The notes below the pieces were generated by a model that saw only the letters and a list, made by a program, of their open reading frames with translations, was not told the origin of the DNA and made no database searches. 34,466 bases of DNA, from positions 1 through 34,466 of the IMG/VR virus record IMGVR_UViG_3300032431_000027; one strand, 5' to 3'. Below, piece by piece: positions 180 to 25,801 of this stretch (its first letter is position 1; each line of letters begins with the position of its first letter). Origin of the DNA: a virus. The position numbers and the translations under genes are program-made.

Positions 180-992
180 CTACAGCAGCTCGGCGGCCTC
201 AAGCGTTGCCGAGAAGAAATTGCCGCCAGTGTGCTCAAGGTCGATCGGCTGCGTCAGGTGGCAGTACATCCCGAGCCGGTGGATCGCCTGCAGATCGAGC
301 GCGCCGTCGGCTTGCCTCGTCCGCGGCAGCACGATCGCCGGTTGCGTTGTCCCGAGCCGGTACCCGAGCTGCTGGAAATCAAAGAGCGCGTTGCTCGGGA
401 CACCAAACGCCAGGTCAAAGGGGATCTGCTGGAACGCCAGAGAAAGTCGTCGGGTGCGTCTGCGGACTCGGCTGTGGCCCTGCTTGCCGCGGCTGCGCTT
501 GACGTAGCCCGGATCGACTACATCGGGGTTCCAGTCCAGGTGGATCGACTGCGGCGGGACAAACAGCGGCCCGGCCCAGATCCGACCGACGCTGTACGTC
601 GAGCCAGCGACGGAGCCAAATCTGAACGCAAGCGCGTTTGTTACAATTCGCGCCGGCAGGAGGAAAAAGAGATTCACCGTGAACTCGCTCGTTGCGTATT
701 CAAGAACCGGCGTTGACGGCGTGATCTCAATATCGGGGCCGTGCGCGATCCGCACTGAGAGAGTGCTGCTGGAGCGCACGTCGAGCAGCGCGACGACGTC
801 CACAGGCGATGTCGCGGACGCCAGCTGACGCACAAGCACCCGATCGGCCAGCCCATGGCTGGCGGCCCAGGGCAGGCCCAGCTGCGGGCCCACAAGGTTG
901 TCCAGCGGTGAGATATCCAGCAGCAAAGAGCTGCCGAAGGGCGCCGACCAGCTGCCGCCTTGCATCCAATCTTGATATGCGATCGCGGTCAT
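180..992 (-). CDS. Tail-tip/baseplate protein, second tandem paralogue
   Basis: A 270-residue protein, clearly a paralogue of its upstream neighbour (1003-1821). About half of the residues match along the whole length, including the start (AIAYQD), SPLDN, VALLDVR, FFLLPARIVT, YSVGRIWAGP, FVPPQ, TRRLS, FDFQQL, IVLPRTR, AIHR.GMYCHL and the end LEA.ELL. I chose the ATG at 992, 10 bases after the upstream stop and behind AAGGGA; it aligns with the paralogue's start, while an upstream in-frame start at 1025 would overlap that gene. Position downstream of tape measure and hub genes suggests a tail-tip or distal baseplate component. I see no catalytic motif. It is the last gene before the left edge. 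Confidence 0.75.
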   Translation of the reverse strand: MTAIAYQDWMQGGSWSAPFGSSLLLDISPLDNLVGPQLGLPWAASHGLADRVLVRQLASATSPVDVVALLDVRSSSTLSVRIAHGPDIEITPSTPVLEYATSEFTVNLFFLLPARIVTNALAFRFGSVAGSTYSVGRIWAGPLFVPPQSIHLDWNPDVVDPGYVKRSRGKQGHSRVRRRTRRLSLAFQQIPFDLAFGVPSNALFDFQQLGYRLGTTQPAIVLPRTRQADGALDLQAIHRLGMYCHLTQPIDLEHTGGNFFSATLEAAELL

Positions 993-1002
993 ACAATCCC
1001 TT

Positions 1003-1821
1003 TCACAAAAGCTCATCGGCTTCAAGCGCCGCGGAAAAATAGCCGCCGCCAGAAGGGGCGATTTTCAGCGGCCTCAGGAGGTGGCAGTACATTCCAACCC
1101 TGTGAATCGCATGCACGTCGACGTCGCCGTTTGCCTTGCGCGTGCGCGGCAGGACAATCACAGGATCAGTCGCGCCGATTCGAAACGACAGCTGCTGAAA
1201 ATCAAATGTCGAGTTGTCCTGCACACCAAACGCCTGGGCAAAATCGACGTGCGAGAAGCGCATCGACAAGCGCCGAGTGCGGTCCCGGACCTTGCTGTAG
1301 CCCTGCCTGCCAGGGCTGACGACCATCTCGCCCGCATCGACGACGCCGGTCTTCCAGTCCCGCTGAAGACCCTGAGGCGGGACGAAAACAGGACCGGCCC
1401 AGATCCGACCGACGGAGTAGACGTCTTTGTGCGCACCGGAAAAAAGGAAGCCAATCCGGCTTGTCACGATCCGCGCCGGCAGCAGAAAAAACGCGTTGAC
1501 GGTGAAATCGCTGCTCGCATATTCAATGATCGGCGTCGACGGCTCGATTACGACCCGTCCCGGCCCGTAGACGAGGCTGATGCTCAGAGCGCCCTCGTAG
1601 CGCACGTCCAGCAGCGCGACCAGGTCAACGGGGGTTGTAGGCGACGCGAACTCGCGCTCAATGACGCGCTGAGCCAGACCGTGCTCGGCTTCCCATCGCA
1701 CGCCGAGCTGCGGGGTCAGCGCGTTGTCAAGAGGTGACAGATCAAGGGCCAGCGGGCTGGTGCCCGATCCGGGCACCCAGCGGCCGTCTTGCACAAAATC
1801 CTGGTACGCGATCGCGCTCAT
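1003..1821 (-). CDS. Tail-tip/baseplate protein, first tandem paralogue
   Basis: A 272-residue protein whose start overlaps the stop of the hub-like gene (ATGA at 1818-1821), so translation is probably coupled. It shares roughly half its residues with the next gene (180-992), which points to an old tandem duplication. The conserved blocks (SPLDN, LPARIVT, YSVGRIWAGP, VLPRTR, GMYCHL) are spread over the full length, so both copies keep the same fold. There is no signal peptide or membrane segment. In siphophages this position, after tape measure and hub, holds distal tail or tail-tip proteins; that assignment comes from context only. The duplicates may form a hetero-oligomer or may have split roles. 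Confidence 0.75.
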   Translation of the reverse strand: MSAIAYQDFVQDGRWVPGSGTSPLALDLSPLDNALTPQLGVRWEAEHGLAQRVIEREFASPTTPVDLVALLDVRYEGALSISLVYGPGRVVIEPSTPIIEYASSDFTVNAFFLLPARIVTSRIGFLFSGAHKDVYSVGRIWAGPVFVPPQGLQRDWKTGVVDAGEMVVSPGRQGYSKVRDRTRRLSMRFSHVDFAQAFGVQDNSTFDFQQLSFRIGATDPVIVLPRTRKANGDVDVHAIHRVGMYCHLLRPLKIAPSGGGYFSAALEADELL

Positions 1822-3443
1822 TCTTTCGCCTTGTCAGCGGGCCTGCTGCCCCACAGCAGCAGCTGCACGCGCCCCTCGCCCAAGGTGCCCTGGACGTCAG
1901 CGACACACAGCAGCTGGCCAGCCTCGAGGCCAAACGCGTCGACTTTTAGCAGCACCACGTCGCCCGGCTGCAGCGTCACTGCAGCGTCCGCATCCAGCAG
2001 CACGGTGAGCCTCCAAAACCACCGCGGCTCGGAGTAGAGCGTCGCGCGGTACGCGGCTTCGTTTGCGCCGGATTGCAGCAGCGTCGGCATTCCAGCGTCC
2101 GCCGCTGGACGGCTGACGTCGCCGGATCCGCTGCGGGTGTCGAGGCGGTCTGTCCCCAGCCCGCCGCGAGCGCTGGAGTATTCGTCGTCGACAACGAAGA
2201 GCGTCGCAAATCGATATGCGCGACTCAGTGCAGCGCCGAAGTCGGTGTCGCGCACGCTACCAGCCAGCTCGCTAGGTGCGTGCTGGTGCCAGTTTCGGGA
2301 CGTGAGAACAGCGTCCGCAAGCCCCGGGGCCGCGTCGAATTCGGGTTGCACTTCGCCCTCGATCGAGTTGCTGTCGATCGTCATCACCGGGCTGCCGCTG
2401 GGCACGCGCCAGCGCGCCAGATGGAAAACGCCGTCGGGGGCAATCCACCACCAGGCGCTCAGGCTGTCTGCGATCTCTGTCAGCAGCTGCGAGTACGTCA
2501 ACGACGAGTCGACAAATCGACCGAGCAGCGCCTGCGACTCAAAATGCAGCGACAAGAGGCCGGCAAAATTTAGACGCGAAATCGACCAGCCCCTACGAAG
2601 CACCAGAAGCGCCTCAACGATGCGATGCAGCCGACCAGGCGCGAACGGCGAAAGCTCGGTCGACGGGCCGCGAACAAGCGCCGTGATTCGACCGGCCGTG
2701 GCTTGGTTCAGCAAAAAACCGTGCTCCTGGCCAACGCTTGCCGCGCTCCACTGCGCACCTGTCGTCAGCAGCACGCCGCTATCGTAAACAGCGCTGATGC
2801 CACTCAATCCGCCAAGCGAGGCTGCTGCGCCGCTGTCGTGCACTGCAAATCGCAGGGTCGGCGCCCCTGTATGCAGCGCAGGCACGGAGTTGCACTGCCC
2901 CAGCGTCACGGGCAGCAGCCGCCCCTGCTGCGGCCCAGACGTGTACGTCTCCGTCTGAATTGGCACATCGAGCTCGGCTGCTGCGTCTGAGAGCACAAGG
3001 CGAACCGCTGATTCACCGACGCCTTCCACGCGCTCGATCACCGCGCGCGCAACAAGCAACATCGCTGCGATGGGCGCATCCGGCGGTCCAAAATACACGC
3101 GAACGATCGAACCGCGCAGCGGGGTAAACATCCACGCATCTAGCGCACGGTCGGCGTTGATCAGCTCGACGCTGCCGATGCCGTAGACCGCGCGACCGCT
3201 GCCCCAGAATGCCAGCGCCGCGCGGCGCTGAAATCGAATCTCGCCGCCGATACGGGGCTCAGCGACAAGACCAGAATCCAGGTGCGCGAAACGGCCGTCG
3301 CTGAACCAGCGCCGGCCGCCAGGCGCATCGACTTCGACAAGAACCGTTCGCAGTCCGCGACGCGCTTCGGCGTACGACGTGCCCAGCCAGTTGAACGAGT
3401 CGTTCCAACGGCGGTCCTCGTTCCAGCGCAAGTTCAGGCCCAT
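1818..3443 (-). CDS. Tail hub / tail-tip protein
   Basis: A 541-residue soluble protein rich in beta-type sequence. The first 110 residues include W-rich repeats (RWNEDRRWNDSFNW) and a stretch typical of phage tail proteins (VELINADRALDAW). The middle (about 310-370) reads like a tail hub core: ADSLSAWWWIAPDGVFHLARW, followed by a PSGSP turn. The C-terminal part (about 490-541) has a beta-barrel-like run ending in VQLLLWGSRP. Its place after the tape measure fits the central hub that closes the tail tube tip, as in other long-tailed phages. The start ATG lies 3 bases after the upstream stop, and its own stop overlaps the next start. The function is inferred from position and general character. 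Confidence 0.6.
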   Translation of the reverse strand: MGLNLRWNEDRRWNDSFNWLGTSYAEARRGLRTVLVEVDAPGGRRWFSDGRFAHLDSGLVAEPRIGGEIRFQRRAALAFWGSGRAVYGIGSVELINADRALDAWMFTPLRGSIVRVYFGPPDAPIAAMLLVARAVIERVEGVGESAVRLVLSDAAAELDVPIQTETYTSGPQQGRLLPVTLGQCNSVPALHTGAPTLRFAVHDSGAAASLGGLSGISAVYDSGVLLTTGAQWSAASVGQEHGFLLNQATAGRITALVRGPSTELSPFAPGRLHRIVEALLVLRRGWSISRLNFAGLLSLHFESQALLGRFVDSSLTYSQLLTEIADSLSAWWWIAPDGVFHLARWRVPSGSPVMTIDSNSIEGEVQPEFDAAPGLADAVLTSRNWHQHAPSELAGSVRDTDFGAALSRAYRFATLFVVDDEYSSARGGLGTDRLDTRSGSGDVSRPAADAGMPTLLQSGANEAAYRATLYSEPRWFWRLTVLLDADAAVTLQPGDVVLLKVDAFGLEAGQLLCVADVQGTLGEGRVQLLLWGSRPADKAKE

Positions 3444-3446
3444 GGG

Positions 3447-4262
3447 TCAGCTCGGAAACGCGCAGTGCGCGGGCCGCGCAGCGCCCCAAGCGATCGAGTC
3501 AAGTACGGCGATATCGCTGTTGACTGCCGAATTAAAACCGGACCACGCGGCGGAGATCAGCAAGCTGCTGCTGCTCGGCACGTTGGAGGAAACGGTCTGA
3601 TCAAGCACTACGGCGCCGCCATCGTTGCGGATCACGCAGCGCGCGCTGCTTGCTGTCACCCAGCTGATATCGACAGTGACCCACACGCCGGCGACCAGCG
3701 TCGCCGTGGTGCCTGCGGACGTGCGAACGCCCGCCGACGCGCACTTGAAGGTGGCCGTGCCGCCCGGTGTGACTGCGAGATAGCAGCCCGTTGTGGGCTC
3801 GCCGGTGCTCGCAGTTCCGTTGTGCAGGCCGAGGAACAGCGTGGAGTTCGCGACGCTGGTTTTCGGCGCAAACACTGCGCGATACGACAGCCCGGCCGCG
3901 CCGATGAACAGCCCGCCAGACGCAAGACGGAAACCGCCGGACAGCGTCCCGCCCGATCGGACGCGAATGATTCCAGGATGCAGGCCCGAGTAGTCGACAG
4001 CATCCGGCGCATTCGTGATCGTCCCCAAATTGATGGCCGCGCTGGCTGTCAGCACCGACGACGCAGCGACTGATGAGCTGTGCATGTCAACTTGCTCCCA
4101 CCGCGCCGCGAGTGCGCTGCGCAGCTCGTTCTGCATCGCGAGCGCGGCGTTCTGGACGTGCGCAACGACCGCAGTCGCCAAGCGCGTCGGGTCGTTCATG
4201 CGCGGGTTGTCGCTAAGGTTCGCAAAAGCGTCGGACTCAGCGGGGAAAAGAGTTGCGGTCAT
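3447..4262 (-). CDS. Tail protein with jelly-roll-like C-terminal part
   Basis: A 271-residue protein starting 2 bases after the tape-measure stop. Residues 1-60 look helical (AVVAHVQNAALAMQNELRSALAARW). Residues about 70-260 are Ser/Thr/Ala/Gly-rich with alternating hydrophobic residues, as expected of a lectin or concanavalin-like beta-sandwich: YRAVFAPKTSVANSTLFLGLHN, then GVWVTVDISWV and DGGAVVLDQTV. This pattern is common in virion proteins that bind surfaces. Between tape measure and hub it would belong to the tail tip, so receptor or glycan binding is possible but not shown. No enzyme motif is visible. Confidence 0.55.
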   Translation of the reverse strand: MTATLFPAESDAFANLSDNPRMNDPTRLATAVVAHVQNAALAMQNELRSALAARWEQVDMHSSSVAASSVLTASAAINLGTITNAPDAVDYSGLHPGIIRVRSGGTLSGGFRLASGGLFIGAAGLSYRAVFAPKTSVANSTLFLGLHNGTASTGEPTTGCYLAVTPGGTATFKCASAGVRTSAGTTATLVAGVWVTVDISWVTASSARCVIRNDGGAVVLDQTVSSNVPSSSSLLISAAWSGFNSAVNSDIAVLDSIAWGAARPAHCAFPS

Positions 4263-4264
4263 CG

Positions 4265-7200
4265 TTAGCGTCCTCGGGCCTGCACCAGGTCGCCGGTGCG
4301 TCGTGTCTCAGCGGCAAGGCGGCTTGCGCCGTCCCTGTGGGTTGTTTCCAGCGCAGCCAGGCGATCGACAATCGCACCCTGACTGCGCGTTTGCTCTGCG
4401 CGCAGCTCGCGCAGCTCTCGCACTACAGCGTCGCTGCTGTTTGCAGCCGCGGGGCCCATCGAGAGGCCGCTGCCGCGGGCGAATTGAGCGACCGCTGCAG
4501 GCAGGATTATTTCGCCCTGGTGGATGAGCGCCGGCCCGGTGCGAGGCACGAACCCACTGCCGACCGCGTAGCTGGGCAGGCCGGCGGCCGTGTTCGCTTC
4601 GCCCAGGTTCTGGACGATGCGCCCGAGCAGCCCCCGCACCTCGACCAGCGCGTCGAGCTGCAGCGAGGCGGTCGCGTTGATGTCCCGCAGCGTCGTGAGC
4701 TCGGTGACGATAGGCGTCGGCGAAATGTTGCTGAAGAAAGGCGCGAGCAAGTCGCGGATACCTGCGGGCATCGCGTTAATTGCGCGCTCGGCCTCCTCGA
4801 CCGCAAGCGTGGAATCGGCATCAGATGTCGCGCTTCGGATGGCATCGAGCGGGCCGGCGAGCTGCTCTCGCAGGTCCGCTGGCACGCCTGCCAGGGTCGC
4901 GTCCAGCGCTTGATTTAGCAGCGACTGCCGGTCAGCGAGCGTGCCCAGTTCGACGCCGACATTTCGCGCGAGCTCGGTCACGTCGACGCCCAGCTGCGCA
5001 GCCATCGCGGCGAGGCTGCTGGCTGTCTCGACGCTCAGTTCGTCGAGATTGATGCCGAGCGCGCCCGCAAGCTCGGTGAGGTTTAAACCGATCGATGCCG
5101 CCACATCTGCCAGCGGATCGCCGGTCGCCTGGATCAGCTCGCGAATCATCAAACCGAGCTGCCGCATCATCTCCGCGCGCTGCTCAGTGAGCTGATCGTC
5201 GAGCATCGCGTCGCGCTGATCGTAGAGCGCTTGCAGCTCCGGCGAGACGCCAGCGCTGCCGCCCACGGAGCCGCCCACGGAGCCCGCGCCAGGCGCTCCG
5301 GCGCCCGGGCCGGCGACAGGTGCGAACTCGAGCAGGCGCGCGACACGGTCACGCACGTAAGCCTCGGTATCGCCGAACTGCGTAAACGATGCACTGAACG
5401 AGCGCTCCTCGCGCAGAAGCGTGTCGGCGAGCTGAGTAATGCGCTGCAAGGCGTTCACGTCGCCGCCGGCCGCTGCCGTGGCGGCTGCGTCGAACTGACG
5501 GCGGGCCTCGGCCAGCCGCTGCTCCGGCGTCAGGCTCGACAGGTCACCGAGCAGCTGCGAATCCAGCCAGTCCTGAATGCCCTGCAGCGCGGCCAGCTGC
5601 TGCTGATAGACGGCAGCCGACGCGGCGCCAACATCGTTGATCGCGCCGATTTGCGTATCGGTGCTCGCACGCTGGGCGGCTTCAATCTCAGCGATCTGCG
5701 ACGTGACCTGGTCCAGCGGCGTGCCGAACAGCTCGCCGACAAGATCCGCTGCCGACTGCCGCAGGCGTTCAATCGCGGCTGCAGCGCGCTGCGCGGCGAT
5801 CAGGTGCACGAGGCCGAGGTCTTCCTCGGCTGCGGACTGCATGCCCGCTGCGCGCGCGGTGTCGGTGAGCGCCTCAATCGTGTCTGATGTCCAGCGGCCG
5901 ATGCTGCGAATTTCAAGCGCGAACTCGCTCATGCCCGCCGAGCCCAGCTCTTCGCGTAGATCCGCAACCATCGCTGCGTAATCCTGCAGCGCTGCCACCT
6001 GCGCCTCCAGCGCCTGCTGCGCCTCGGCCTGGCCGCGCTCAAGCATCGTGTAGTAGGCGTCTGCCGTGTCCGCCAGGCGCAGCAGCGTCGCGATCTGCTC
6101 GCGGCCGGATTCTGTCGTCGCGTCGAGCGATTGCATCAGCTCAAACATTCCCTGGCGCGTCGCGGGGATCGTCAGCCCGGACTGCTCAAACGCCCGCGTC
6201 AGGTCGCTTTGCAACAACTCAAACTTGCGCGACTCGGGTGCAAATTTATCGACGAACGACAGCATGCCACTGACGAATTCTTCGATTCCGCCGACAAGAT
6301 CGATGAGGCTTTCGCTGATCTGCGCAAACCGCTCCGGCTCAATTTCGTCGAGCGAGAAACCCAAGCGGCGCAGGCCTTCTTGCGTCACCTGCACGCCGGT
6401 CGCGACGCGCACGAGAGTTTCGCCGAGGCCTTCGCCCACGCGCTGAAACTGCGCGATGAACGGCACGACCGCGCCGGCCAGCCCGTCAAAAATCGAGCTG
6501 AACACGGCGAGTAATTCCGCCTGTTGCTCCTCAGCGGTAAGGTCCTTGAGGCTGATCCGGATCTCTTCAAGCTGAAACGCGGCGAGTGCGGCTTCAATCT
6601 CGGCGGGGAGCAGGCCCAACGCAAGCGCACCCTCGCGCACGGTGTTGACGAGCGAATCGATCACGAGCTGAAACTGCGCCTCGAGGCCGCCGCTGACGTT
6701 GACGATTTCCTCGCTTGTACGCCGGCTGCCGAAGCGCCAGCTGCGGCTTTGGACTTCCTGAAAAGCGCCGAGCACGATGCCTTCTAAAATGTTGCCCATG
6801 ATCACGATTCCCTGGTCCGTGATTCGCGAGCTGCCGCCCAGCAAATTCAGTGGATCCAGCGGCAGCGAGCGCAGAGCGCCGCCCATGAACACATCGCCGA
6901 AACGCGTCGCCGCGGGCAGATCAGCAAAGCCCGACTGCCCGGCGCCACGCGCAAGCATGCCGCCTGCTGAGTCAAGCCCGTTCTGCAGCGCGATCAACGC
7001 GCGCAGCATTCCGCGATTGATGCCGACCAGCTCGGAGGTCGCGTCAGCTGTGATTTCCAGCGCGTTTAGAATCGATTCGGATTTCGCCGCGGCGTCGCCC
7101 AGCACGCTGCCAGTGCCCTGCTGCTCCTGCCGGCGGGCCGCCGTGTCAGTGAAGCCCGCCGACCCGCCAAAACTGCCAATGCTGCCGGCAAGGTTTGCGA

Positions 7201-9595
7201 TCAAAGGGGCAATTGCGGCGGCCATGAGTGACATTCGGACAGGCGCGCTGTACGGGTCGCCCGTGCCCTGATTGAGGACTGCGGAGATGCCCTGCACGAG
7301 CGCCAGCGCGTCGATAGCGACTTGCATCGCGCGGAACGACGCGCTGCCCTGCGATGCGAGCGATTGCATGCCGCGCAGCGCTTCGGACGTGGCCTCGACA
7401 ATGCCCGGGCCGAGGGTGCCGTGCAGATCGCGCAGCGCGGCCTTCAGCTCAGCCACGCGCGGCCCGCCGCGCGCCAATTCTTTGTCGAGCGCGTTGCCGA
7501 CAAGCTCGATATCCGTGATCAATCGATTCAGGCCGGTATCGGCGAGATCTGCCAGCACGTCTTCAAAAGTGCGCCCGACCTCTTCGACAGCCTCGCCTGA
7601 TTCCCGCAGGTCTTTTGCAAGCTCTTCGAATGCCTGCTTGCGGGCCTTCGCCAGGTCGTCTACAGCCTCGACCGACAAGCTGTTTCCAGCCACCAGCTGC
7701 TGCTCAATTTCCGAAATCGCCGCAAGCTGATCACGGTACGACTGCGCGGCCGCCACTGCCGGGCCGCCCAGCGCGACGGCCTGCCGGTCCAGAATTCTCG
7801 CCAGGCTCTGCAGTGCGCCGCCCGCCTCACCCATGCCGGCGACCCACTGCTGCGTGTCCTGCGCGGCCGTTGCGATCGCGCCCGAGGCCTTCTCAACGCC
7901 GGCCTTCAGCGCGCCCGTCTTGCCCGTCAAATCTGCAGTGGCGTCTGCGGCGGCGTCAGTCGCGTCGCGATGCGCAAACTGGGCCTCGGTGGCCTGCATC
8001 ATGTCGTCCATCATCGCGATATTTGCAGCGTCGGCCTGGGCCCACTCGCCGCGCAGCCGCTCGACCTCGCCCGCTGCGGCGGCCGTAGCTGCCCCCGTAT
8101 TGCGCAGCTCGGACGCCAGCCCCGTCAGCGCCTGGCCCGCCCCGAATGTGAAGTCAGCGCGCAGGCCCAGCGGCAGGTCAATATTCGCGAGATCGACGTA
8201 CGACTCAATCAGCTCCGCCAGCTTGTTGCGGATCACATCAATCGATGCCACCGCAGCAAACGCCAGTGCGGCGAACGCGACTTTGGCGCCGAATTCGATC
8301 TGGTTCCAGACGTTGAAAAACCCCGCAACGAGCGCATTGCCGGCGATCTGCACGACCTCGAATTCTTCGCGCAGCCACGTGCCGATCTGCCAGCCCGCAA
8401 ACAGCGCGACGAGCCCGCCCAGCGCGGCGGTGACCAGCCCAATGCTTTTGAGCGACGCCAACATGCCGGCCGCTTGAGCAATTCCGAGCGTCCGCGCGAG
8501 CGCAATGTTGATGACGTACTGCTGCGCCTGGAACACCAGCTGCGCGCTGTATGCGAGCACCGCGCGCAGCAGCTGCGCGCCCCACACCGCGAGCAGAACT
8601 GGCGCCAGCTGCACGCCCAGGCGAATGGCTGCGGCGATCTCGTCTGAGAACCGGCCAATCGCGTTTATCGCACTGGCCAGCCCATCTAGGATCACCGGGA
8701 TGACCCCCACGAAAGCCGACACCAGCGTGTCAAAACCCGCGGCGACTTCCGGCGATTGCATCTGTTGCACAACAGCCTCAACCGCCCCGCGCACTTCGGG
8801 CAATCCGCCCTTGGCTTCCAGCAGATCGCCGAGCGCGTTTTTCAGCGAGGCCAGCGCGCCGCCGAGGGTGTCGCGCGCGGCCACGGCCGCACCACCGAAC
8901 TGGCGCTGGAGCTCGTCCAGGATCACGCCTTGGGCTTCTGCCACGCGGCCGGTCTCGACGAACTGCTTGATCACGTCCTTTTGCTGATCCGTGAATTGGA
9001 TCCCGGACCTCGCCAGCGCGCTGAGCCCTTCGATCGGATCGTTCAGCGCCTTGCCGAGCTGCAGCGCGGCGCTCTTGAGGTCAGTGCCCATTGCCGTCGC
9101 GGTGTCTAGGATTGCAAGCTGCGCGCGCTGAAACTCACTGCCGCCGATTTGCGTAAACGTCAGCAGCAGCGACTGCATCTCCATCACCGCTTCGTCGCCG
9201 TACGTGGTCAGCGTCTGCAGCTCCGCGGCCATGCTTGCGAGCTCGGGCGCGGCAAAGCCGGCGGCGCCGCCGGTCGAGCGCACGCGCGTTTCCAGCTGCT
9301 TGAAAGCTGCCTCTTGCCGGAGGGTGTTGCTGATGATTCCGCTCACCACCGCGCCGACAGACTGCAGGCCGATAAACGCGCCGACAAACCCAAGCACCTG
9401 ACGTTTTGCGCCCGCCAACTGCCGGCCGACGCGCTCCGCGCCCTGCCCTGTCGTGTCGAGGGCTCTCGTGGCCTTCTGTCCGGAGCGCTCGCTTGTCGAC
9501 CCGATCCCGTCGAACTCCGACCGCACCTTGCGAACGCCGCTCACAGCGCCGGAAGCGTCCGACGTAATCCGTAGGGTCACCGTCTGCTCAGCCAC
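4265..9595 (-). CDS. Tail tape-measure protein
   Basis: At 1776 residues this is the largest gene in the window. It begins with the usual tape-measure N-terminus (TVTLRITSDASGAVSGVRKV), then a region typical of phage tail length proteins (about residues 60-260, with LETRVRSTGG and QLGKALNDPIEGLSALARSGI). Several hydrophobic segments follow (about 330-460), then long Ala/Glu/Gln-rich helical stretches. Near residue 1440 there is a short Gly-Ser-Val repeat, encoded by a 12-bp tandem near 5262-5285. The protein sets tail length and occupies the tail lumen; at about 1.5 angstrom per residue the tail would be near 265 nm. The start is GTG behind GGGAG. The length fits a siphovirus, not the short contractile tail of Mu. 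Confidence 0.93.
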   Translation of the reverse strand: MAEQTVTLRITSDASGAVSGVRKVRSEFDGIGSTSERSGQKATRALDTTGQGAERVGRQLAGAKRQVLGFVGAFIGLQSVGAVVSGIISNTLRQEAAFKQLETRVRSTGGAAGFAAPELASMAAELQTLTTYGDEAVMEMQSLLLTFTQIGGSEFQRAQLAILDTATAMGTDLKSAALQLGKALNDPIEGLSALARSGIQFTDQQKDVIKQFVETGRVAEAQGVILDELQRQFGGAAVAARDTLGGALASLKNALGDLLEAKGGLPEVRGAVEAVVQQMQSPEVAAGFDTLVSAFVGVIPVILDGLASAINAIGRFSDEIAAAIRLGVQLAPVLLAVWGAQLLRAVLAYSAQLVFQAQQYVINIALARTLGIAQAAGMLASLKSIGLVTAALGGLVALFAGWQIGTWLREEFEVVQIAGNALVAGFFNVWNQIEFGAKVAFAALAFAAVASIDVIRNKLAELIESYVDLANIDLPLGLRADFTFGAGQALTGLASELRNTGAATAAAAGEVERLRGEWAQADAANIAMMDDMMQATEAQFAHRDATDAAADATADLTGKTGALKAGVEKASGAIATAAQDTQQWVAGMGEAGGALQSLARILDRQAVALGGPAVAAAQSYRDQLAAISEIEQQLVAGNSLSVEAVDDLAKARKQAFEELAKDLRESGEAVEEVGRTFEDVLADLADTGLNRLITDIELVGNALDKELARGGPRVAELKAALRDLHGTLGPGIVEATSEALRGMQSLASQGSASFRAMQVAIDALALVQGISAVLNQGTGDPYSAPVRMSLMAAAIAPLIANLAGSIGSFGGSAGFTDTAARRQEQQGTGSVLGDAAAKSESILNALEITADATSELVGINRGMLRALIALQNGLDSAGGMLARGAGQSGFADLPAATRFGDVFMGGALRSLPLDPLNLLGGSSRITDQGIVIMGNILEGIVLGAFQEVQSRSWRFGSRRTSEEIVNVSGGLEAQFQLVIDSLVNTVREGALALGLLPAEIEAALAAFQLEEIRISLKDLTAEEQQAELLAVFSSIFDGLAGAVVPFIAQFQRVGEGLGETLVRVATGVQVTQEGLRRLGFSLDEIEPERFAQISESLIDLVGGIEEFVSGMLSFVDKFAPESRKFELLQSDLTRAFEQSGLTIPATRQGMFELMQSLDATTESGREQIATLLRLADTADAYYTMLERGQAEAQQALEAQVAALQDYAAMVADLREELGSAGMSEFALEIRSIGRWTSDTIEALTDTARAAGMQSAAEEDLGLVHLIAAQRAAAAIERLRQSAADLVGELFGTPLDQVTSQIAEIEAAQRASTDTQIGAINDVGAASAAVYQQQLAALQGIQDWLDSQLLGDLSSLTPEQRLAEARRQFDAAATAAAGGDVNALQRITQLADTLLREERSFSASFTQFGDTEAYVRDRVARLLEFAPVAGPGAGAPGAGSVGGSVGGSAGVSPELQALYDQRDAMLDDQLTEQRAEMMRQLGLMIRELIQATGDPLADVAASIGLNLTELAGALGINLDELSVETASSLAAMAAQLGVDVTELARNVGVELGTLADRQSLLNQALDATLAGVPADLREQLAGPLDAIRSATSDADSTLAVEEAERAINAMPAGIRDLLAPFFSNISPTPIVTELTTLRDINATASLQLDALVEVRGLLGRIVQNLGEANTAAGLPSYAVGSGFVPRTGPALIHQGEIILPAAVAQFARGSGLSMGPAAANSSDAVVRELRELRAEQTRSQGAIVDRLAALETTHRDGASRLAAETRRTGDLVQARGR

Positions 9596-9610
9596 GTGGC
9601 CGCACTCCCT

Positions 9611-10359
9611 TCAGCTCTTTGAGTTGAGCAGCGGCCGAGCCGCGGCCACGACGCATTGGACGCGCGCGAGCACGTCCTCCCACTCGCTGCGCGGCACGCG
9701 CAGCACGGCAAGCGCAGCTCGTATCTCGACCATCGAAATCCCTTGCCAGAACGCGGCGCCGGGCCCGATCACCAGCGCCCACATGCATGACCGGTACACC
9801 GACACCGCCAGCCAATTGCACGTGAGCACCTCGATATCGCTGCATTGGTGGGGTGAGTTCCATTTTGCGATTACGTCGGCAGGTGCGCCGAACTGGGCCA
9901 GCTGCTCCGCAACTGCATGCCGATCAACCTGCTTGCGGCCGCCGCTTAGCGCTTCGGCGACCGCTTCAAGTTTTTTGCCGGTGCGGCGCGGTAGCCGCTG
10001 AAAAACGCGTCGAAAGTGGCAACCCGCAGCGCCAGGGTTGAGAGCACCTGCTCACGCTGTTTTGCAGGGTCGTACGCAGTGCCGTCACCGTCGCCAATTC
10101 CGTCCACGCCCTCGAGCACTTCCTCAAGCACGCGGAGCTGGTAGTCGGTCACCTGCCGCGTCGTCGGGACCTGGCGATTGCCCTGTTCGTCCTCGTCGCC
10201 GATCTCGCGGATATCGTCCATAAATTCGGTAAAGCGATCGCTCGACACGAATTTGTAGCGGGCGGTGAATTCGCCTTCGTTGAAAACGCCGGCTTTCTCG
10301 GTCGGCAGGCGGACCTTGACGACCGCGGCAAAAGTGCTGATCTGGATGAGCTTGAGCAT
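9611..10359 (-). CDS. Tail assembly chaperone GT, -1 frameshift product
   Basis: Joined product of two overlapping frames. Translation starts at the ATG at 10359 and reads 130 codons to the slippery heptamer AAAAAAC (minus strand 9976-9970). It slips back one base and continues for 119 codons to the stop at 9611-9613, giving about 249 residues. The second frame has no good start of its own near the junction (only a GTG at 9829, inside the frame), but is open and protein-like from the slip site: LEAVAEALSGG, then VAEQLAQFGAPADVIAKW, VLTCNWLAVSVY and VEIRAALAVLRV. Its place between tail tube and tape measure is where lambda makes gpG and gpGT, chaperones that bind the tape measure and recruit tail tube subunits. 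Confidence 0.75.
9935..9976 (-). promoter_or_regulatory. Programmed -1 ribosomal frameshift signal
   Basis: On the minus strand the heptamer A AAA AAC (9976-9970) sits in the zero frame of the tail chaperone gene, as X XXY YYZ sites require. After a 5-nt spacer (TTGAA) comes an inverted repeat: 5' arm GCGGTCGCC (9964-9956) pairs with GGCGGCCGC (9943-9935), nine pairs including one U-G, around a 12-nt loop. The zero-frame stop TAA (9948-9946) lies in that loop. The -1 frame is open across the site and on to 9611. Heptamer, spacer, stem and open frame together match the textbook layout of a -1 signal. Confidence 0.8.
9946..10359 (-). CDS. Tail assembly chaperone G (zero-frame product)
   Basis: A 137-residue protein made when ribosomes do not slip. 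The start ATG at 10359 follows the tail-tube gene by about 90 bases; an in-frame open stretch up to 10584 lies antisense-like inside the tail-tube gene and was not used. The sequence starts MLKLIQISTFAAVVKVRLP, has an acidic middle (DDIREIGDEDEQG) and a helical end (LSTLALRVATFDAFFSGY), as usual for tail chaperones (the TAC family of siphophages). The last codons before the stop contain the slippery site and the 5' arm of a hairpin. Without frameshifting the product ends NLKRSPKR. Known chaperones of this type coat the tape measure before tube assembly. Confidence 0.75.
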   Translation of the reverse strand: MLKLIQISTFAAVVKVRLPTEKAGVFNEGEFTARYKFVSSDRFTEFMDDIREIGDEDEQGNRQVPTTRQVTDYQLRVLEEVLEGVDGIGDGDGTAYDPAKQREQVLSTLALRVATFDAFFSGYRAAPAKNLKRSPKR

Positions 10360-10399
10360 GGTTTTTCCGTGTAGGTGATGGGCATTGATCGGTGCATGA

Positions 10400-10422
10400 C
10401 TCGGCCGCCAGAGGCGGCCGAG
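10400..10422 (-). promoter_or_regulatory. Perfect 10-bp hairpin after the tail tube gene
   Basis: The arms CTCGGCCGCC and GGCGGCCGAG are perfectly complementary around a 3-nt loop, 26 bases downstream of the tail-tube stop. On the transcribed minus strand no T-run follows, so this is not a classic intrinsic terminator. It may protect the 3' end of a processed tail-tube message or cause partial termination, keeping downstream genes lower than the tube gene. Confidence 0.55.
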
Positions 10423-10447
10423 CAAAGGCGCAAAAATTGCCGGTTGA

Positions 10448-11377
10448 TCAGGTGAAAGTGAGGGAGTACTCGTCGCCGCCGGCACCCGAGGGCACTGCGG
10501 TGAATGCGATGTCGAAGCCGGCGACGCCTTCAATATCGACAGGCTTCGGGTACTCCAACTGAGCGCGAATCGGCGCAGAAACACTGCGGCCGCCGGTGCT
10601 TGTGATCGCGTTCGTGATCACTACGATCGATTGCGCGTTTGCCAGCGCCCAAGGATTCCAAGTCGCAAGCGCGTCGTTTTTGACGACCTGCAGCGTGCCG
10701 GTCGGCTTGCGGTCAGTCAGCACCACTTCGCGGTTTTCGCTGGTCTCGATAAGCGGCAAAGTTGCGTTCTGCGCGAGAGACAGCTGGCGTGCGTAGACGG
10801 GCACACCGGCGATCTGCACGTTCCACGTCTCCGTCTCGATCGCAGCCGGGGTGCTGAATGCCGCCCAGTCGATCGACGCGGGCGCCTCGCCGTCTTGCGG
10901 GATAACCAGCAGCCCGGTCAGCTGCACGGTCGCTTTGGCGTATTCCTTGACATTGAAGGCGAAGGACATCGAGCCGCGCACACCCAGCATCCGAAAACGA
11001 ATGCCGGCCATGAAAAAATCGATCGTGGCGGAGGGCAGGCCCAGGCTGATCGGCGCGTAAACCGCGTTGGTAGCGGGCGTCAGCACCTCGCTGTGGCCGC
11101 AGATGCGATACAGCCCGCCGAGCGGCGCGGCCAGCCCCGCAGTCGCGGATCCAATCACATCCACCGTGCCGCTCAGCGTGATCCGTTTGCCGACAAGCAC
11201 GAACGGGTCGCCACCAAAATGCGGCGAGTCCAGGTTGCGTTCCAGCTTGTCCGCAACGGGCTCAATCGAGGAGTCCATCAGCCGGATTGCGTTGGCCGCG
11301 GCCATCGTGGCGGCGACGCCGTAGGTGGTTTCGATATTGAGCAAAGCGACGCGGTCAGTAGAGCTGCGGAAGGGCAT
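10448..11377 (-). CDS. Major tail tube protein
   Basis: A 309-residue protein placed between tail completion genes and the tail chaperones, the standard slot for the tail tube subunit. The N-terminus (SSTDRVALLNIETTYGV) and the end (PVDIEGVAGFDIAFTAVPSGAGGDEYSLTFT) match the general pattern of siphophage tube proteins: an opening loop and a final beta-strand segment. The start is ATG behind AAGGAG, one of the strongest ribosome binding sites in this operon, which suits a very abundant protein. A perfect hairpin follows the gene. In Mu this slot would hold a sheath gene followed by a short tube gene; here there is one long tube gene and no sheath, so the tail should be non-contractile. Confidence 0.75.
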   Translation of the reverse strand: MPFRSSTDRVALLNIETTYGVAATMAAANAIRLMDSSIEPVADKLERNLDSPHFGGDPFVLVGKRITLSGTVDVIGSATAGLAAPLGGLYRICGHSEVLTPATNAVYAPISLGLPSATIDFFMAGIRFRMLGVRGSMSFAFNVKEYAKATVQLTGLLVIPQDGEAPASIDWAAFSTPAAIETETWNVQIAGVPVYARQLSLAQNATLPLIETSENREVVLTDRKPTGTLQVVKNDALATWNPWALANAQSIVVITNAITSTGGRSVSAPIRAQLEYPKPVDIEGVAGFDIAFTAVPSGAGGDEYSLTFT

Positions 11378-11380
11378 GTA

Positions 11381-11641
11381 TTACTCCTTGCGGGGGCCGG
11401 ACTTCCGGCGCGGTGCGGTTTCGATGGGCGGCAAAGCGGTCGCGCCGCCGTCGTGGATTTGAGCCTCTAAATCGAGCGTCTCGACGGCGTCGGGATCGGT
11501 CTGCGTAATCGGGTGAGGGGCAGTCGGGTAGCCCGTGGGCGGCTGCAAGCAGGTCAAACTGCCGTCAGCCTCGCGGCGATAGCTGCCGCCGTCCCGCGGC
11601 ATTGGCAGCGGTGTATTCGGTTGGGTCGGGTTGTCTTTCAT
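11381..11641 (-). CDS. Small proline-rich protein before the tail tube
   Basis: An 86-residue polar protein. Its ATG at 11641 overlaps the stop of the upstream gene (ATGA), which decides the start over a longer in-frame reading beginning at 11692. It is rich in Pro, Thr and Asp (TQPNTPLPMPRDGG, then PTAPHPITQTDPDAV) and ends with a basic tail (RRKSGPRKE), so it is likely to be largely disordered. I do not recognise a family. It lies in the same slot as the short DUF2635-type proteins of Mu-like phages but does not clearly match them. Its role in tail assembly is only suggested by its neighbours. Confidence 0.6.
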   Translation of the reverse strand: MKDNPTQPNTPLPMPRDGGSYRREADGSLTCLQPPTGYPTAPHPITQTDPDAVETLDLEAQIHDGGATALPPIETAPRRKSGPRKE

Positions 11642-12081
11642 CACTGGCGCACCTCCGCGCGGTAGCGGGTCTGATAAATCACTTGGCTGCACAGCCAGCT
11701 GGCGAGATAGAACTCGTCGCGCGCAGTATCGAAATGCAGGCCCTGGTAGCGCTCAAAGCCGTCCGGGCTCCATCCGAGAAGCCGCGCGTCTACCGCGCTC
11801 TGCAATGCGTCCATCGCCTTGCGAGCTGCGGATCCGGTGTCAGCGGTGCCGGCGTGGCTGACGAACAGAACGACCTGGACTGAGACGCGAATGTTCTGCA
11901 GCAGCACGCCGTTGCTTGCGCCGATCGGTGGCTCGCCGTGTCGCTGGTGCACAACGAATGCGGCCGGCGCGGCACGCGGTTTCTGCGCGATCGCAGTCGA
12001 CAGATCGGCTGCGTCGCCGATCAACTTGAGCGCGGTGACAGCCGCCAAGCGATCCATTACTGCTGCGGTCGGAAAACTCAC
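11641..12081 (-). CDS. Tail terminator-like protein (Mu gp37 type)
   Basis: A 146-residue protein beginning with GTG at 12081, which overlaps the stop of the DUF1320 gene (GTGA). The N-terminus is an Ala-rich helix (AAVMDRLAAVTALKLIGDAADL). A beta-rich core follows (NIRVSVQVVLFVSH, then ARDEFYLASWLCSQVIYQTRY), as in the gp37/tail-terminator-like proteins found after gp36 in Mu-like phages. Such proteins cap the tail tube or join it to the head. Order is as expected: capsid, gp35-like, gp36-like, this gene, tail tube. The family assignment rests on order plus overall pattern, so another neck protein is possible. Confidence 0.6.
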   Translation of the reverse strand: MSFPTAAVMDRLAAVTALKLIGDAADLSTAIAQKPRAAPAAFVVHQRHGEPPIGASNGVLLQNIRVSVQVVLFVSHAGTADTGSAARKAMDALQSAVDARLLGWSPDGFERYQGLHFDTARDEFYLASWLCSQVIYQTRYRAEVRQ

Positions 12082-12599
12082 AGGCCGCCTAGGGTGCCGC
12101 GACTAAAAAGGCGCGGCCTCGCGGTGATGCGGACCCGACCCGCGTCAGCGTCGGCTGAGTCTGAATTCACTGGCGCGAGAGGGTCACCAGCGCCGAGGCT
12201 CAACGCGCCGCCGGCTACCAACAAAAGGGCGCGGCGGGCGTCGCGATAGTCGCGCTCGATGCGGCCCACGCCCTCGTCGAGGGCCTCGCGGTGTGGGTGC
12301 AGGTGGTAGAGCGCGAATGCGCGCGTCCACACCATCAGCACGGGAAATTTGACGACGTCGGCGGGCAGCAGATAGCCGCGCTGGCTCAGGTACGCATTCA
12401 CCTCGCCTGTCGCCGCTTCGCACTGCTCGGTGACAGCGATGAGCGCGGCGTCGGCTGCGGCGATTTCAAGCGCCGAAAATGCGGTGCGGTCACCGGCGGC
12501 GAGCGTGGCATCCCAGAGCTCCAGCGGCAGCTCAAAAAGCTGCGCGAGGTCGAGGCTGCCGCCGGGGCGGCTGGAAAGCTGGTGGGGGCTGACGTACAC
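12078..12599 (-). CDS. DUF1320 head-tail connector (Mu gp36 type)
   Basis: A 173-residue protein with the opening typical of DUF1320 (Mu gp36/J-like): a short YVSPHQL start, then LAQLFEL and helices with many Ala/Asp residues. There is a run of the VNAYLSQRGYLLP kind and the FPVLMVWTRAFALYHLH helix that marks this family. It continues with ERDYRDARRALLLVAGGALSLG and a polar C-terminus. Family members act at the head-tail joint. The start is GTG at 12599, just after the stop of the gp35-like gene, with AAGG upstream. Its stop overlaps the next GTG start. Synteny with other Mu-like phages is good. Confidence 0.75.
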   Translation of the reverse strand: MYVSPHQLSSRPGGSLDLAQLFELPLELWDATLAAGDRTAFSALEIAAADAALIAVTEQCEAATGEVNAYLSQRGYLLPADVVKFPVLMVWTRAFALYHLHPHREALDEGVGRIERDYRDARRALLLVAGGALSLGAGDPLAPVNSDSADADAGRVRITARPRLFSRGTLGGL

Positions 12600-12602
12600 G
12601 GA

Positions 12603-12941
12603 TCAGGCCTTGGGATTCGGGAGATTGGCGGCAGCCTTGGCAGCAGCTTTGGCAGCAGCCTTGGCCGGCGCCTTGGCGACGCGTTTTGCCGGCGCCTTCG
12701 GGGCGTCAGGCGCTGCAGGTTTGGCGGCGGATTCCTGCGGCGCGTCGTCGGCCAGGCTGGCGGATCCCGCAGCAGATTTCAGGGTGGGCGCGCGGGTCAC
12801 GATCAGCTGCGCCTCGCCCTCGATCGCTTCGAGCTGCTCGACCGTGAGCTGATCAAGCGGGATCTCGCGCGGCGCGCGGGTGAACTCAAAGCTGGCGCGA
12901 CGAAACGACTGACGGACTGAGACGACTAGGACTGACGACAT
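12603..12941 (-). CDS. FluMu gp35-like protein with histone-like tail
   Basis: A 112-residue protein. Residues about 5-50 resemble the FluMu N-terminal domain of Mu-like prophages (SFRRASFEFTRAPREIPLDQLTVEQLEAIEGEAQLIV). The rest is low-complexity: an Ala/Pro/Lys-rich tail (PKAPAKRVAKAPAKAAAKAAAK) like histone H1 or bacterial AlgP-type tails. Such basic tails often bind DNA or the inner capsid surface. It follows the major capsid gene after a strong hairpin, as gp35 follows gpT in Mu. The start ATG has GAGG upstream. The tail is encoded by 12-bp repeats, so its length may vary between relatives. Confidence 0.7.
   Translation of the reverse strand: MSSVLVVSVRQSFRRASFEFTRAPREIPLDQLTVEQLEAIEGEAQLIVTRAPTLKSAAGSASLADDAPQESAAKPAAPDAPKAPAKRVAKAPAKAAAKAAAKAAANLPNPKA
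12627..12686 (-). repeat. Five 12-bp repeats encoding AKAA-type tail
   Basis: Five imperfect 12-base units follow one another (GGC.GCAGC.TT-like on the plus strand). They encode the Lys/Ala repeats at the C-terminus of the gp35-like protein. The units differ by a few bases each. Slippage here would change the length of the basic tail without breaking the frame. Confidence 0.7.
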
Positions 12942-12957
12942 GGGAACCTCTGATGAG

Positions 12958-12986
12958 ACTGACCGCGGCCATGGGCCGCGGTCAGT
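12958..12986 (-). promoter_or_regulatory. Perfect 13-bp hairpin after the major capsid gene
   Basis: The arms ACTGACCGCGGCC and GGCCGCGGTCAGT are perfectly complementary around a 3-nt loop. The hairpin fills most of the gap between the capsid stop (13010) and the next start (12941). No T-run follows on the transcribed strand. Like the hairpin after the tail tube gene, it could stabilise the 3' end of capsid mRNA or lower readthrough into downstream genes. Confidence 0.6.
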
Positions 12987-13009
12987 ACGGCTTCTAAGCT
13001 GGACCTGGC

Positions 13010-13909
13010 TTAGGCCAGGCGCGAATCGTCGAGCACCTCGACGAGTCCCCTCATGACATTGTCGGCACCGTTTGCGAGGGTGGTCGCACTGACCAGCTTC
13101 ATCGCAGCGAATTTCAGTGCCGGCGGCACTACCAGCAACGTCGGCTTGAAGCCCAGCTCCCGGCCGTTATCGCCCTTGCGAGCAGTCATTGCGGTGTAGC
13201 CCGCGACCAAGCTGGCCTCGTCGAGGACCGCGCGGCTGCCGTACGCCTGCTGCCAGAAACCAAAACCGACATTGCAGCGGCTGTCGACGCCGTAGATGTA
13301 TTCCTTGCGGTTGAAAACATTCTCGTCCGTGTCCGCAGTCATTGAGACGAAGTGCGGCTTCTTCCGTTCCTGGTAGATGATCGGCTTCAGTGCGCGGCTT
13401 GTGTCGAGCAGATACCAGGGCGTACCGCTGCCGCCGTTGTTGTCCCAGTTCGACTGCGACTCGACCACGCCGTTCGAATTGATCACCGGGTGATCGGTAT
13501 CAAAAAAGAACTGGCCGTCGTAGCACAGCGTGCTGTTGCCGAGCTTCAGCAAGCTGAAAACAAGGTCGTCGGGGTGCTCGCCGGCGGACTGCCCGAGTTC
13601 TTTCATCAGCGGCGTGTAGATGCCCAAATTGTCGTCGTCGATATCGTCGCGATCGACGCCGACAGTCAGCTCGAACGGTTTGTTGCGGATCGCGTAGCCG
13701 TGAGCCGCCATGCCGTTGACGACGCGGTCGCCGAGCCACTCGCGCATTTTCGGAAATTTGCCGAGCCATCCGTACTCGTTACTTTTGCTGCTCGACGTGA
13801 CGTACGTCGCGATGCGCGCGTAGTTAGACGGCGCAGCGCCCATGCCGTCCTTAAAAGCCGCGCTGAAAGCGACGTAGAGCGTGCGCAGGGTGCCTGTATT
13901 GATGAGCAT
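13010..13909 (-). CDS. T: Major capsid protein (Mu gpT type)
   Basis: A 299-residue protein with the hallmarks of the Mu gpT family: the start LINTGTLRTLYVAFSAAFKDG, then the W-L-G-x-x-P-x-x-R-E-W motif (WLGKFPKMREWLGD). This is followed by KPFELTVGVDRDDIDDDNLG, then FFDTDHPV, and a C-terminal part with GFKPTLLVVPPAL. Family members form the icosahedral shell after proteolysis and scaffold removal. The gene follows protease/scaffold and decoration genes, as in Mu-like phages. The start ATG has GGAGAG upstream and a strong hairpin follows the stop, both fitting a highly made protein. The length (about 300 residues) is normal for the family. Confidence 0.93.
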   Translation of the reverse strand: MLINTGTLRTLYVAFSAAFKDGMGAAPSNYARIATYVTSSSKSNEYGWLGKFPKMREWLGDRVVNGMAAHGYAIRNKPFELTVGVDRDDIDDDNLGIYTPLMKELGQSAGEHPDDLVFSLLKLGNSTLCYDGQFFFDTDHPVINSNGVVESQSNWDNNGGSGTPWYLLDTSRALKPIIYQERKKPHFVSMTADTDENVFNRKEYIYGVDSRCNVGFGFWQQAYGSRAVLDEASLVAGYTAMTARKGDNGRELGFKPTLLVVPPALKFAAMKLVSATTLANGADNVMRGLVEVLDDSRLA

Positions 13910-13949
13910 GAATCTCTCCGAGAAGTAGAAGGCGGGCTAGAAAGCCCCG

Positions 13950-14357
13950 TCAGAATTGAACCCACACGCCGCGCTCATTCACGTCGCGCAGAACGCCAGC
14001 CGGCGAGCGGGTGCCGGTGCCGTCGGTCCGCGCAACGGTTTGGTTGTCCACGATGTGAACAATCGCGCCGATATCGCCGCGCGTGACCAAGTCCGCGGCA
14101 GCGGAGTTGTCGAGCGCGAAACAGCCGCGGCGGACGCGCACGCTAATCGCGCCTGCGGCGCCGCCAACGTTGTCAGCGGTGACCTCGACAACGCCGACGC
14201 CACGCCGCGCTGTCGCTGTGGCGCCGGGCTCGGCAAATCCGCTGGCGTTGACCATCGCGATCGTCCCGGCCAGCAGCCGGACGTTCCCGGCTACGGGCAG
14301 ATCCACATGGGTCGCGTCGCGGCGGGGGGTGTTGCGCTCAGCAGTGGTAGCGGGCAT
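13950..14357 (-). CDS. Small capsid decoration-like protein
   Basis: A 135-residue protein between scaffold and major capsid. It is rich in small residues and beta-type runs (VDLPVAGNVRLLAGTIAMVNASGFAEPG, then ADNVGGAAGAISVRVRRGCFALDN). It ends VLRDVNERGVWVQF. This resembles the short beta-rich proteins (DUF2190-like) that sit beside gpT-type capsids and may bind the capsid surface. The exact family is uncertain. The start ATG has GGAG at proper spacing. A 5-bp hairpin (13934-13947) lies in the short gap before the capsid gene. Shape and position suggest decoration or stabilisation of the head. Confidence 0.6.
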   Translation of the reverse strand: MPATTAERNTPRRDATHVDLPVAGNVRLLAGTIAMVNASGFAEPGATATARRGVGVVEVTADNVGGAAGAISVRVRRGCFALDNSAAADLVTRGDIGAIVHIVDNQTVARTDGTGTRSPAGVLRDVNERGVWVQF

Positions 14358-14394
14358 TTGGATTTACTCCGTAAGGGGTTTGGGTGGGCGCCGC

Positions 14395-14913
14395 TTAGCC
14401 GACCGCACGCGCGGTGCGCTCGGTGCGCTCGGCGGCATAGGCGGCCTCGCTGATCCCGAGCGCCGTGCACACGGCGCGTTCCTCAGCGTTGAGTGCGGTG
14501 CTGGCGTCAGCTGCGCCGCGGCCATCGAGGCCGCTATCCGGCGCGATCGTGTGCGCGCTGGCAACGTACGCGCGGAAGCGTTCAAGTCCGGCAGCGTCGT
14601 TGCACAGCGCGCGGTGATAGTCGGCCGATGCCGGCGCGATCTTCCGATCTTTCAGCGCGCCCTCCATGGCCAAATCGACGCTGGCCTTGAGCTGAGCTGC
14701 GTCGCGCTCGCGCAGCTGCGTCTCAGCGTTTTGTGCGCGCGTCTGCGACTGATCGTAGTCAGCGCGCGGGACGTAGCGCTGCAAATCCCGCGACTCAGAA
14801 TTGATCGCCGTGCGCAGGGCTGCGATCGCCGCGAGCACTGCGGCCTCGTCCGCATCAACAGACACGCTGAGAGCGGCGGCCACGGCCGCTGAGAGTGAAA
14901 GTTTGAGTTCCAT
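14395..14913 (-). CDS. Internal-start scaffold protein (Mu Z type)
   Basis: In-frame ATG at 14913 within the protease gene, preceded by CGGAGAAAAAC, a strong ribosome binding site with correct spacing. It would yield a 172-residue protein starting MELKLSLSAAVAAALSVSV. This is the helical, acidic C-terminal part of the precursor (runs such as QSQTRAQNAETQLRERDAAQLKASVDLAMEGAL). Mu and lambda use the same layout: protease with a nested scaffold gene read from an internal start. The second start is needed because far more scaffold than protease is required. The evidence is the Shine-Dalgarno site and the family parallel. Confidence 0.65.
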   Translation of the reverse strand: MELKLSLSAAVAAALSVSVDADEAAVLAAIAALRTAINSESRDLQRYVPRADYDQSQTRAQNAETQLRERDAAQLKASVDLAMEGALKDRKIAPASADYHRALCNDAAGLERFRAYVASAHTIAPDSGLDGRGAADASTALNAEERAVCTALGISEAAYAAERTERTARAVG

Positions 14914-15393
14914 GTTTTTCTCCGAGTTGAGTGCTTGAAGCGGAAGGTTGGGGGTGTTCGTAAGCCCAGCGGACACAAGACGCACGATGCGTCCAGTACC
15001 GGGGTCGAAATCGAAAACGGGGGAGAGAAACCGGTACTCGCGATTGAGCACCTGGTCGTGACCGCGATCGGTCCAGCGCACGTCGGCCCAGAGCGCCCCT
15101 TCGCGCACGTTGAGCGCGGTGATCCAGGCAGCGGCCGGCGCCGTCTGCCCCTTGGGCGCGCGGTGCTGTGTCGCGTGCTCCCAATCAATGGGCAGCTCGA
15201 TGCCGCGTGCGTTGAAAGCCCGCAGCGTGGCGTCGACAGCGGCGCCGTCAAAAAGCCAGCTGCGCCCGTCGCGACCGACCACCGCCGGGCCCGTGGGAAT
15301 CAGCTGGACCGACGACGGCACGCCAGTGGCGCCAGCGACGTCGACAAGGCCGAGTTCAGAGCAGAGCGCGAGGGTGTTGGAGGCGTTGGGCAT
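14395..15393 (-). CDS. I: Prohead protease / scaffold precursor (Mu gpI type)
   Basis: A 332-residue protein that leads the minus-strand head operon. The N-terminal half matches Mu I-type proteases: VQLIPTGPAVVGRDGRSW, then the conserved block PIDWEHATQH with GQTAPAAAWI after it, and YRFLSPVFDFDPGTGRI. The C-terminal half is helical and charged, as in scaffolds. An internal ATG at 14913 probably makes the scaffold alone. I chose the ATG at 15393 because it lies nearest the family's usual start; a GTG at 15417 is also possible. The protease should cleave the scaffold during head maturation. Its usual partner gpG lies on the other strand at the far end of the window. Confidence 0.85.
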   Translation of the reverse strand: MPNASNTLALCSELGLVDVAGATGVPSSVQLIPTGPAVVGRDGRSWLFDGAAVDATLRAFNARGIELPIDWEHATQHRAPKGQTAPAAAWITALNVREGALWADVRWTDRGHDQVLNREYRFLSPVFDFDPGTGRIVRLVSAGLTNTPNLPLQALNSEKNMELKLSLSAAVAAALSVSVDADEAAVLAAIAALRTAINSESRDLQRYVPRADYDQSQTRAQNAETQLRERDAAQLKASVDLAMEGALKDRKIAPASADYHRALCNDAAGLERFRAYVASAHTIAPDSGLDGRGAADASTALNAEERAVCTALGISEAAYAAERTERTARAVG

Positions 15394-15491
15394 GGGGCGA
15401 TTGTTCGCCTGCTGCACGCCTGGGTGGGTTTCGACAGCTCGAAATCAGTAGCGGATCGCTGCGGCGGGAAACTCGCGCCGAGGTCGCGCGC

Positions 15492-22038: not shown

Positions 22039-22039
22039 C

Positions 22040-22249
22040 ATGAGCGACATCAAAACCCCGTGCGTGCCGTGCCCCTGCTGCGGCACGTGCCTCACGCAAT
22101 CGGCAAACGTGGTGCCGAACTGCAACGCCGCGGTCTACAGCCAGCACGCTGAGCAATGCAAATTCGGGATCGTTGTGACGTGCGTCGAATGCGAGACCGA
22201 GTTCTCCACGTGGGTCTCGGTCGGCGACCTCGCCCTGGTGCACGCGTGA
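22040..22249 (+). CDS. Small Cys-rich zinc-ribbon-like protein
   Basis: A 69-residue protein with CPCCGTC near the N-terminus and TCVEC near the C-terminus, plus further Cys and His between them (PNC, QHAEQC). The arrangement suggests a zinc ribbon. No family is recognised. It starts one base after the B stop and its end overlaps the next gene (GTGA). Small zinc proteins are common in the semi-essential early region of Mu-like phages. Confidence 0.6.
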   Translation: MSDIKTPCVPCPCCGTCLTQSANVVPNCNAAVYSQHAEQCKFGIVVTCVECETEFSTWVSVGDLALVHA

Positions 22250-22593: not shown

Positions 22594-22796
22594 CCCTCCG
22601 GGTAGCAACGAGCAAGAGTCGGCGGCTCCGCGCGATGCAGTTTGCGCTCTGGGCGCATACGCGCGGCGAGAGGCTGCCCAGCAACCCCCGGATCGCAGCG
22701 ATTTTCGAGTGCGGGGTTCACACCGCGGCCGACCTGAAGCGGGATTTTATCGAAGCCCGAAGGCCTTATTTGGAGCGCCCAAATGGACCCGGATGA
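22590..22796 (+). CDS. Small HTH-like early protein
   Basis: A 68-residue basic protein starting at the ATG that overlaps the upstream stop. It has a helical pattern resembling a short HTH: RRLRAMQFALWAHTRGERLPSNPRIAAIFECGVHTAADLKRDF. The segment with NPRIAAIFECGVHTA could be helix-turn-helix, suggesting DNA binding. No named family is recognised. It lies in the semi-essential early region between B and DUF3164. Confidence 0.5.
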   Translation: MTLRVATSKSRRLRAMQFALWAHTRGERLPSNPRIAAIFECGVHTAADLKRDFIEARRPYLERPNGPG

Positions 22797-25360: not shown

Positions 25361-25361
25361 A

Positions 25362-25781: not shown

Positions 25782-25801
25782 GCCGCTGCTAAAGTTCAGT
25801 C

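Follow-up and report, generated by a model that had tools for sequence, protein, structure and literature searches.

On the minus strand of the window (the whole 34,466-nt stretch of DNA analysed here), a tail tube gene is followed by a chaperone open reading frame and a tape measure gene, and a pair of overlapping chaperone frames occupies the space between tube and tape measure (Table 1). Starting at 9976, 121 codons of the −1 frame are free of stops, up to a TGA at 9613-9611 that directly precedes the ribosome site of the tape measure gene. Profile searches with the window's own zero-frame protein gave no significant chaperone match. Among twelve aligned homologues of this protein, two match Phage_TAC_4 and four match PHROG 313 (tail assembly chaperone), and DUF1799 matches were found in six of the twelve aligned homologues of the −1 frame extension. 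Through these relatives, Phage_TAC_4 and PHROG 313 link the first frame to tail assembly chaperones, and the second can be grouped with DUF1799/PHROG 680. AlphaFold2 models of the two halves were too uncertain to be used (mean pLDDT 48.5 and 50.0).

Table 1. Coordinates of the tail-module features in the window.
Feature	Coordinates	Strand	Basis or remark
Major tail tube protein	10448..11377	−	PHROG 290, E 1e-11; weak Phage_tube_2; homologues in 12 named phages
Zero-frame tail assembly chaperone (G-like), 137 aa	9946..10359	−	open frame; 66-68% identity in three IMG phages
Slippery heptamer A AAA AAC	9970..9976	−	zero-frame phase, context GCA AAA AAC TTG
Spacer TTGAA, 5 nt	9965..9969	−	TCGAA in relatives
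Putative stimulatory hairpin, 5' arm GCGGTCGCCG	9955..9964	−	folding
Hairpin loop, 10 nt, contains zero-frame stop	9945..9954	−	folding and comparison
Zero-frame stop TAA	9946..9948	−	inside hairpin loop
Hairpin 3' arm CGGCGGCCGC	9935..9944	−	folding
−1 frame T-like extension, 119 codons + TGA, no start of its own	9611..9970	−	CTT at 9970-9968 onward; PHROG 680 match
Predicted GT-like fusion, 249 aa (130 + 119)	9611..10359	−	predicted from the frameshift
Tape measure protein	4265..9595	−	own GTG start; AGGGAG ribosome site 9610-9605

The window appears to be a complete, end-to-end Mu-like genome. Its left end reads TGTAGCGGCGC…GATAAAT from position 21 and its right end …ATCAAGCGCGGGAACA at 34417. 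The likely Mu-type left terminus is 5'-TGTAGCGGCGCGCGATAAAT at 21, with GATAAAT at 34 and 57, and the likely right terminus is GGGAACA-3', with its last base at 34417. Two relatives (G001 and G003) have the same termini and differ abruptly in sequence outside them, which would leave about 20 and 49 bases of host DNA in the window. At the left end (180-15417), the minus strand encodes protease, capsid and tail; at the right end (19103-34305), the plus strand encodes terminase, portal, F-like and G-like genes after the transposition genes. The head genes are split between both genome ends on opposite strands, and the strands are opposed in three relatives too. This arrangement differs from the collinear RC1 and D3112 and from the layout of B3.

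A predicted slip site and hairpin near the end of the chaperone gene

The heptamer A AAA AAC constitutes codons 128-130 of the 137-codon chaperone frame. The stem predicted downstream of it comprises 10 bp, including one U-G pair (9964-9955 with 9944-9935). The 35-nt hairpin element has a predicted dG of −21.1 kcal/mol (z −2.4), and longer segments around it give z values of just −1.6 to −1.8, which are modest because the genome is GC-rich (65% GC). A downstream stimulatory structure is frequent but not obligatory in shifts of the lambda G/GT type, and here a conserved hairpin takes that place. The first-pass annotation had proposed a zero-frame heptamer at 9976-9970, a 5-nt spacer, a zero-frame stop within the loop and a location between tail tube and tape measure, all of which hold; its outer limits for the hairpin (9964-9935) stand as well, but folding replaces its 9-bp stem and 12-nt loop with 10 bp and 10 nt.

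Such an arrangement is rarely expected by chance. An in-phase AAAAAAC occurred anywhere in the chaperone gene in 0.6% of codon shuffles and within the last 15 codons of the gene in 0.055%. The 23 genes of the window contain 14 in-phase heptamers of eight X/Y types, and only the A AAA AAC under study lies less than 60 nt from a stop. The openness of the −1 frame is, taken alone, weak evidence, an equally open frame being present in 7% of dinucleotide shuffles. The strong evidence for the signal is its conservation.

Conservation of the signal and of both frames

Searches of genome contigs found no relative. Three IMG/VR phages (L001-L006) are 63-68% identical to the window in both proteins and have an identical heptamer, an identical stem and a 5-nt spacer that differs by a single base; the first-pass annotation had suggested aligning relatives to see if these three elements are conserved, and they are. 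Roughly 50 nt surrounding the signal form a block with two substitutions relative to these phages, while the flanking DNA is widely different. Both changes (CTT to CTC and CTA to CTG) are synonymous in the −1 frame, and the second converts the zero-frame stop TAA to TGA, which is found in L004-L006, still within the loop. Within the initial 15 codons of the −1 frame, 7 of 9 four-fold sites were unchanged; the corresponding figures are 19 of 39 for the later part of this frame and 23 of 48 for the upstream zero frame, though these numbers are small and part of the conserved block is doubly coding.

In a more distant phage (L043), whose tail tube is 41% identical, we found A AAA AAC separated by 5 nt from an 11-bp stem with a TAG in the loop, so that heptamer, spacer length and hairpin are all kept. 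Relative to the window, this stem shows two double compensatory changes (C-G to A-U and G-C to C-G) and one change from U-G to U-A. Its 3' arm is shifted by one nucleotide relative to the codons, and therefore structure rather than protein sequence appears to be kept there. Since it comes from a single lineage, this covariation is suggestive and not statistical support for the hairpin.

For a wider comparison we used the 12 named phages in which a tail tube homologue could be detected, among them Agrobacterium JP1, which matches half of the tube only. All 12 have an in-phase heptamer, which is A AAA AAC in S-LBS1, S-CBS1, S-CBS3, Vibrio ZX4290, Leptolyngbya Lsp-JY19 and JP1, and G GGA AAC in RcapMu, RcWaterboi, RC1, RS1, ThpP1 and Me-ZS1. 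The heptamer is thus kept though the proteins of these phages are just 16-37% identical to those of the window. In all 12, as well as in L019 (see below) and L043, 112-151 codons of the −1 frame stay open before the tape measure gene is reached. The sole invariant residues in the 12-sequence alignments are the zero-frame Asn at the slip site and Lys-Leu in the −1 frame, all of them belonging to the slip site. The hairpin downstream is strong in S-LBS1, S-CBS1, S-CBS3 and Vibrio ZX4290 (z −3.1 to −5.4) and did not reach significance on folding in RC1, ThpP1, Lsp-JY19 and Me-ZS1. In most of the more distant relatives, the zero-frame stop immediately follows the heptamer. Among all relatives compared, none had a broken heptamer while retaining both frames, the outcome named in the first-pass annotation as counting against it.

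The second slip codon is AAC, never AAG or AAA, in every member of both tail-module alignments. The Leu codon of the −1 frame, whose first base is the C of AAC, is invariant too, which may explain the constancy of AAC.

A DNA pattern search returned nine loci, three of which are the known relatives. A fourth, L019, is a true relative with an in-phase A AAA AAC and a zero-frame stop directly after it. Two further matches (L016:3337-3657 on the minus strand and L020:3655-3990) are linked to the window by DNA pattern only. Both combine an extended zero frame and an in-phase A AAA AAC with 107-112 open codons in the −1 frame, and they are perhaps further tail chaperone frameshifts. L013, L014 and L018 look unrelated.

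The −1 frame had also been described as protein-like, and comparison bears this out. Codons 16-49 of this frame all precede the first codon at which it could start; 14-16 of these 34 residues are kept in relatives, with 7-9 synonymous changes. The substitution pattern therein indicates that the frame is conserved as protein before any start codon that could serve it. Identity is 63% in the −1 frame, against 36% in the alternative shifted frame, where stops occur. A Mu-type −2 shift was rejected on these grounds, the conserved frame being −1.

Probable programmed frameshifting and alternative explanations

A programmed −1 ribosomal frameshift yielding a G-like and a GT-like chaperone is by far the best explanation of this arrangement, and we assign it a probability of about 0.95. 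The majority of ribosomes would translate 10359-9946 to the stop and so produce the 137-aa chaperone. A minority would stall at the hairpin with the Lys and Asn tRNAs on A AAA AAC, and these tRNAs would re-pair one base back on AAA AAA in a tandem −1 slip; translation would then proceed in the −1 frame to 9611 to give the 249-aa fusion. Since A AAA AAG slips more readily than A AAA AAC in E. coli, the efficiency of the shift could be low. By analogy with lambda G/GT, the short form may coat the tape measure protein and the T part of the fusion may recruit tail-tube subunits; the lambda mechanism, the roles of its products and its wide occurrence are reviewed in PMC5009743.

It is conceivable, though rather unlikely, that the stop-enclosing hairpin is itself selected in this clade and that its melting links termination to the frequency of frameshifting. 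We raise this idea because the layout is preserved although stem pairs have been replaced and the stop may be TAA, TGA or TAG.

In most deposited relatives, the second frame appears as a truncated open reading frame by itself, named hypothetical or tape measure, which fits the expectation of the first-pass annotation that automatic annotation would miss or shorten it. Taken at face value, these entries would have the second frame initiate independently as a gene in its own right, perhaps through coupling to termination of the first, and the GTG codons at positions 50, 58 and 60 of the −1 frame could serve as such starts. However, no ATG, GTG or TTG precedes codon 50 in the window, the GTG at codon 50 lacks a Shine-Dalgarno match, and conservation starts at the heptamer, far upstream of any shared start. 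Retention of the heptamer across phages with such divergent proteins also speaks against a separate gene, which we consider very improbable.

The fusion could otherwise be translated from an edited transcript, to which RNA polymerase slipping on the run of six A residues at the site had added a base. RNA polymerase slippage usually requires a longer run. Moreover, the six phages with G GGA AAC have no such run at the same place, and a downstream RNA hairpin with compensatory changes would be unexpected, making polymerase slippage more improbable still. A chance overlap, or a sequencing error splitting one gene, would suit the weakness of −1 openness as evidence, but has a negligible probability given the recurrence of this arrangement in five other IMG contigs and in the 12 named phages.

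Comparison with known tail frameshifts

The programmed −1 shift proposed for the window resembles that of lambda G/GT in position, in its two-product logic and in the tandem −1 slip site. The lambda slip site is G GGA AAG, compared to A AAA AAC in the window. In the searches made, the window proteins showed no direct sequence similarity to G or T of lambda. Xu, Hendrix and Duda (2004), as cited in PMC5009743 and PMC4378225, are the source for a widespread −1 tail-assembly frameshift of dsDNA phages. Mu gp41 shares position and purpose with the arrangement in the window, whereas it uses a −2 shift and belongs to a contractile-tail module.

Among Mu-like phages, Rhodobacter phage RcapMu (NC_016165) offers a close parallel. 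Its genes 49/50 share with the window a homologous tail tube, the gene order, an in-phase heptamer and a −1 T extension of the DUF1799 kind, and its record annotates a 'potential −1 frameshift' at the exactly homologous nucleotide. RcapMu differs from the window in its heptamer, G GGA AAC, and in a zero-frame stop directly after it, and identity to the window's two halves is 16% and 23%. The Pseudomonas phages of the PaMx73/D3112 type likewise combine a Mu-like genome and a flexible tail with a predicted −1 shift; in PaMx73 (D3112 group) the predicted site is T TTT TTC, which unlike that of the window lies 43 codons ahead of the stop, and Mu's −2 shift is called exceptional (PMC4378225). The authors of the KS10 study give a matching summary (PMC2628397). 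The tail tube of these phages was not found by a search with that of the window. In the chaperone genes of DMS3 (L034:11718-11724) and D3112 (L023:25008-25014) we observed an in-phase T TTT TTC with the −1 frame open for 87-88 codons, in agreement with the prediction for PaMx73, and in B3 we observed C CCT TTC with 93 open codons.

The first-pass annotation therefore overstated the novelty of finding a −1 shift like that of lambda in a genome of the Mu type: because of the RcapMu record and the prediction in PMC4378225, such a shift in a Mu-like siphophage is not new and was already on record as a prediction. To this record the window adds a well-supported member, a clear and well-conserved case among the known tail-chaperone frameshifts. 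The signal emerges as a regular part of a siphophage tail module common to transposable phages and cyanophages, and annotation of such modules should join both frames.
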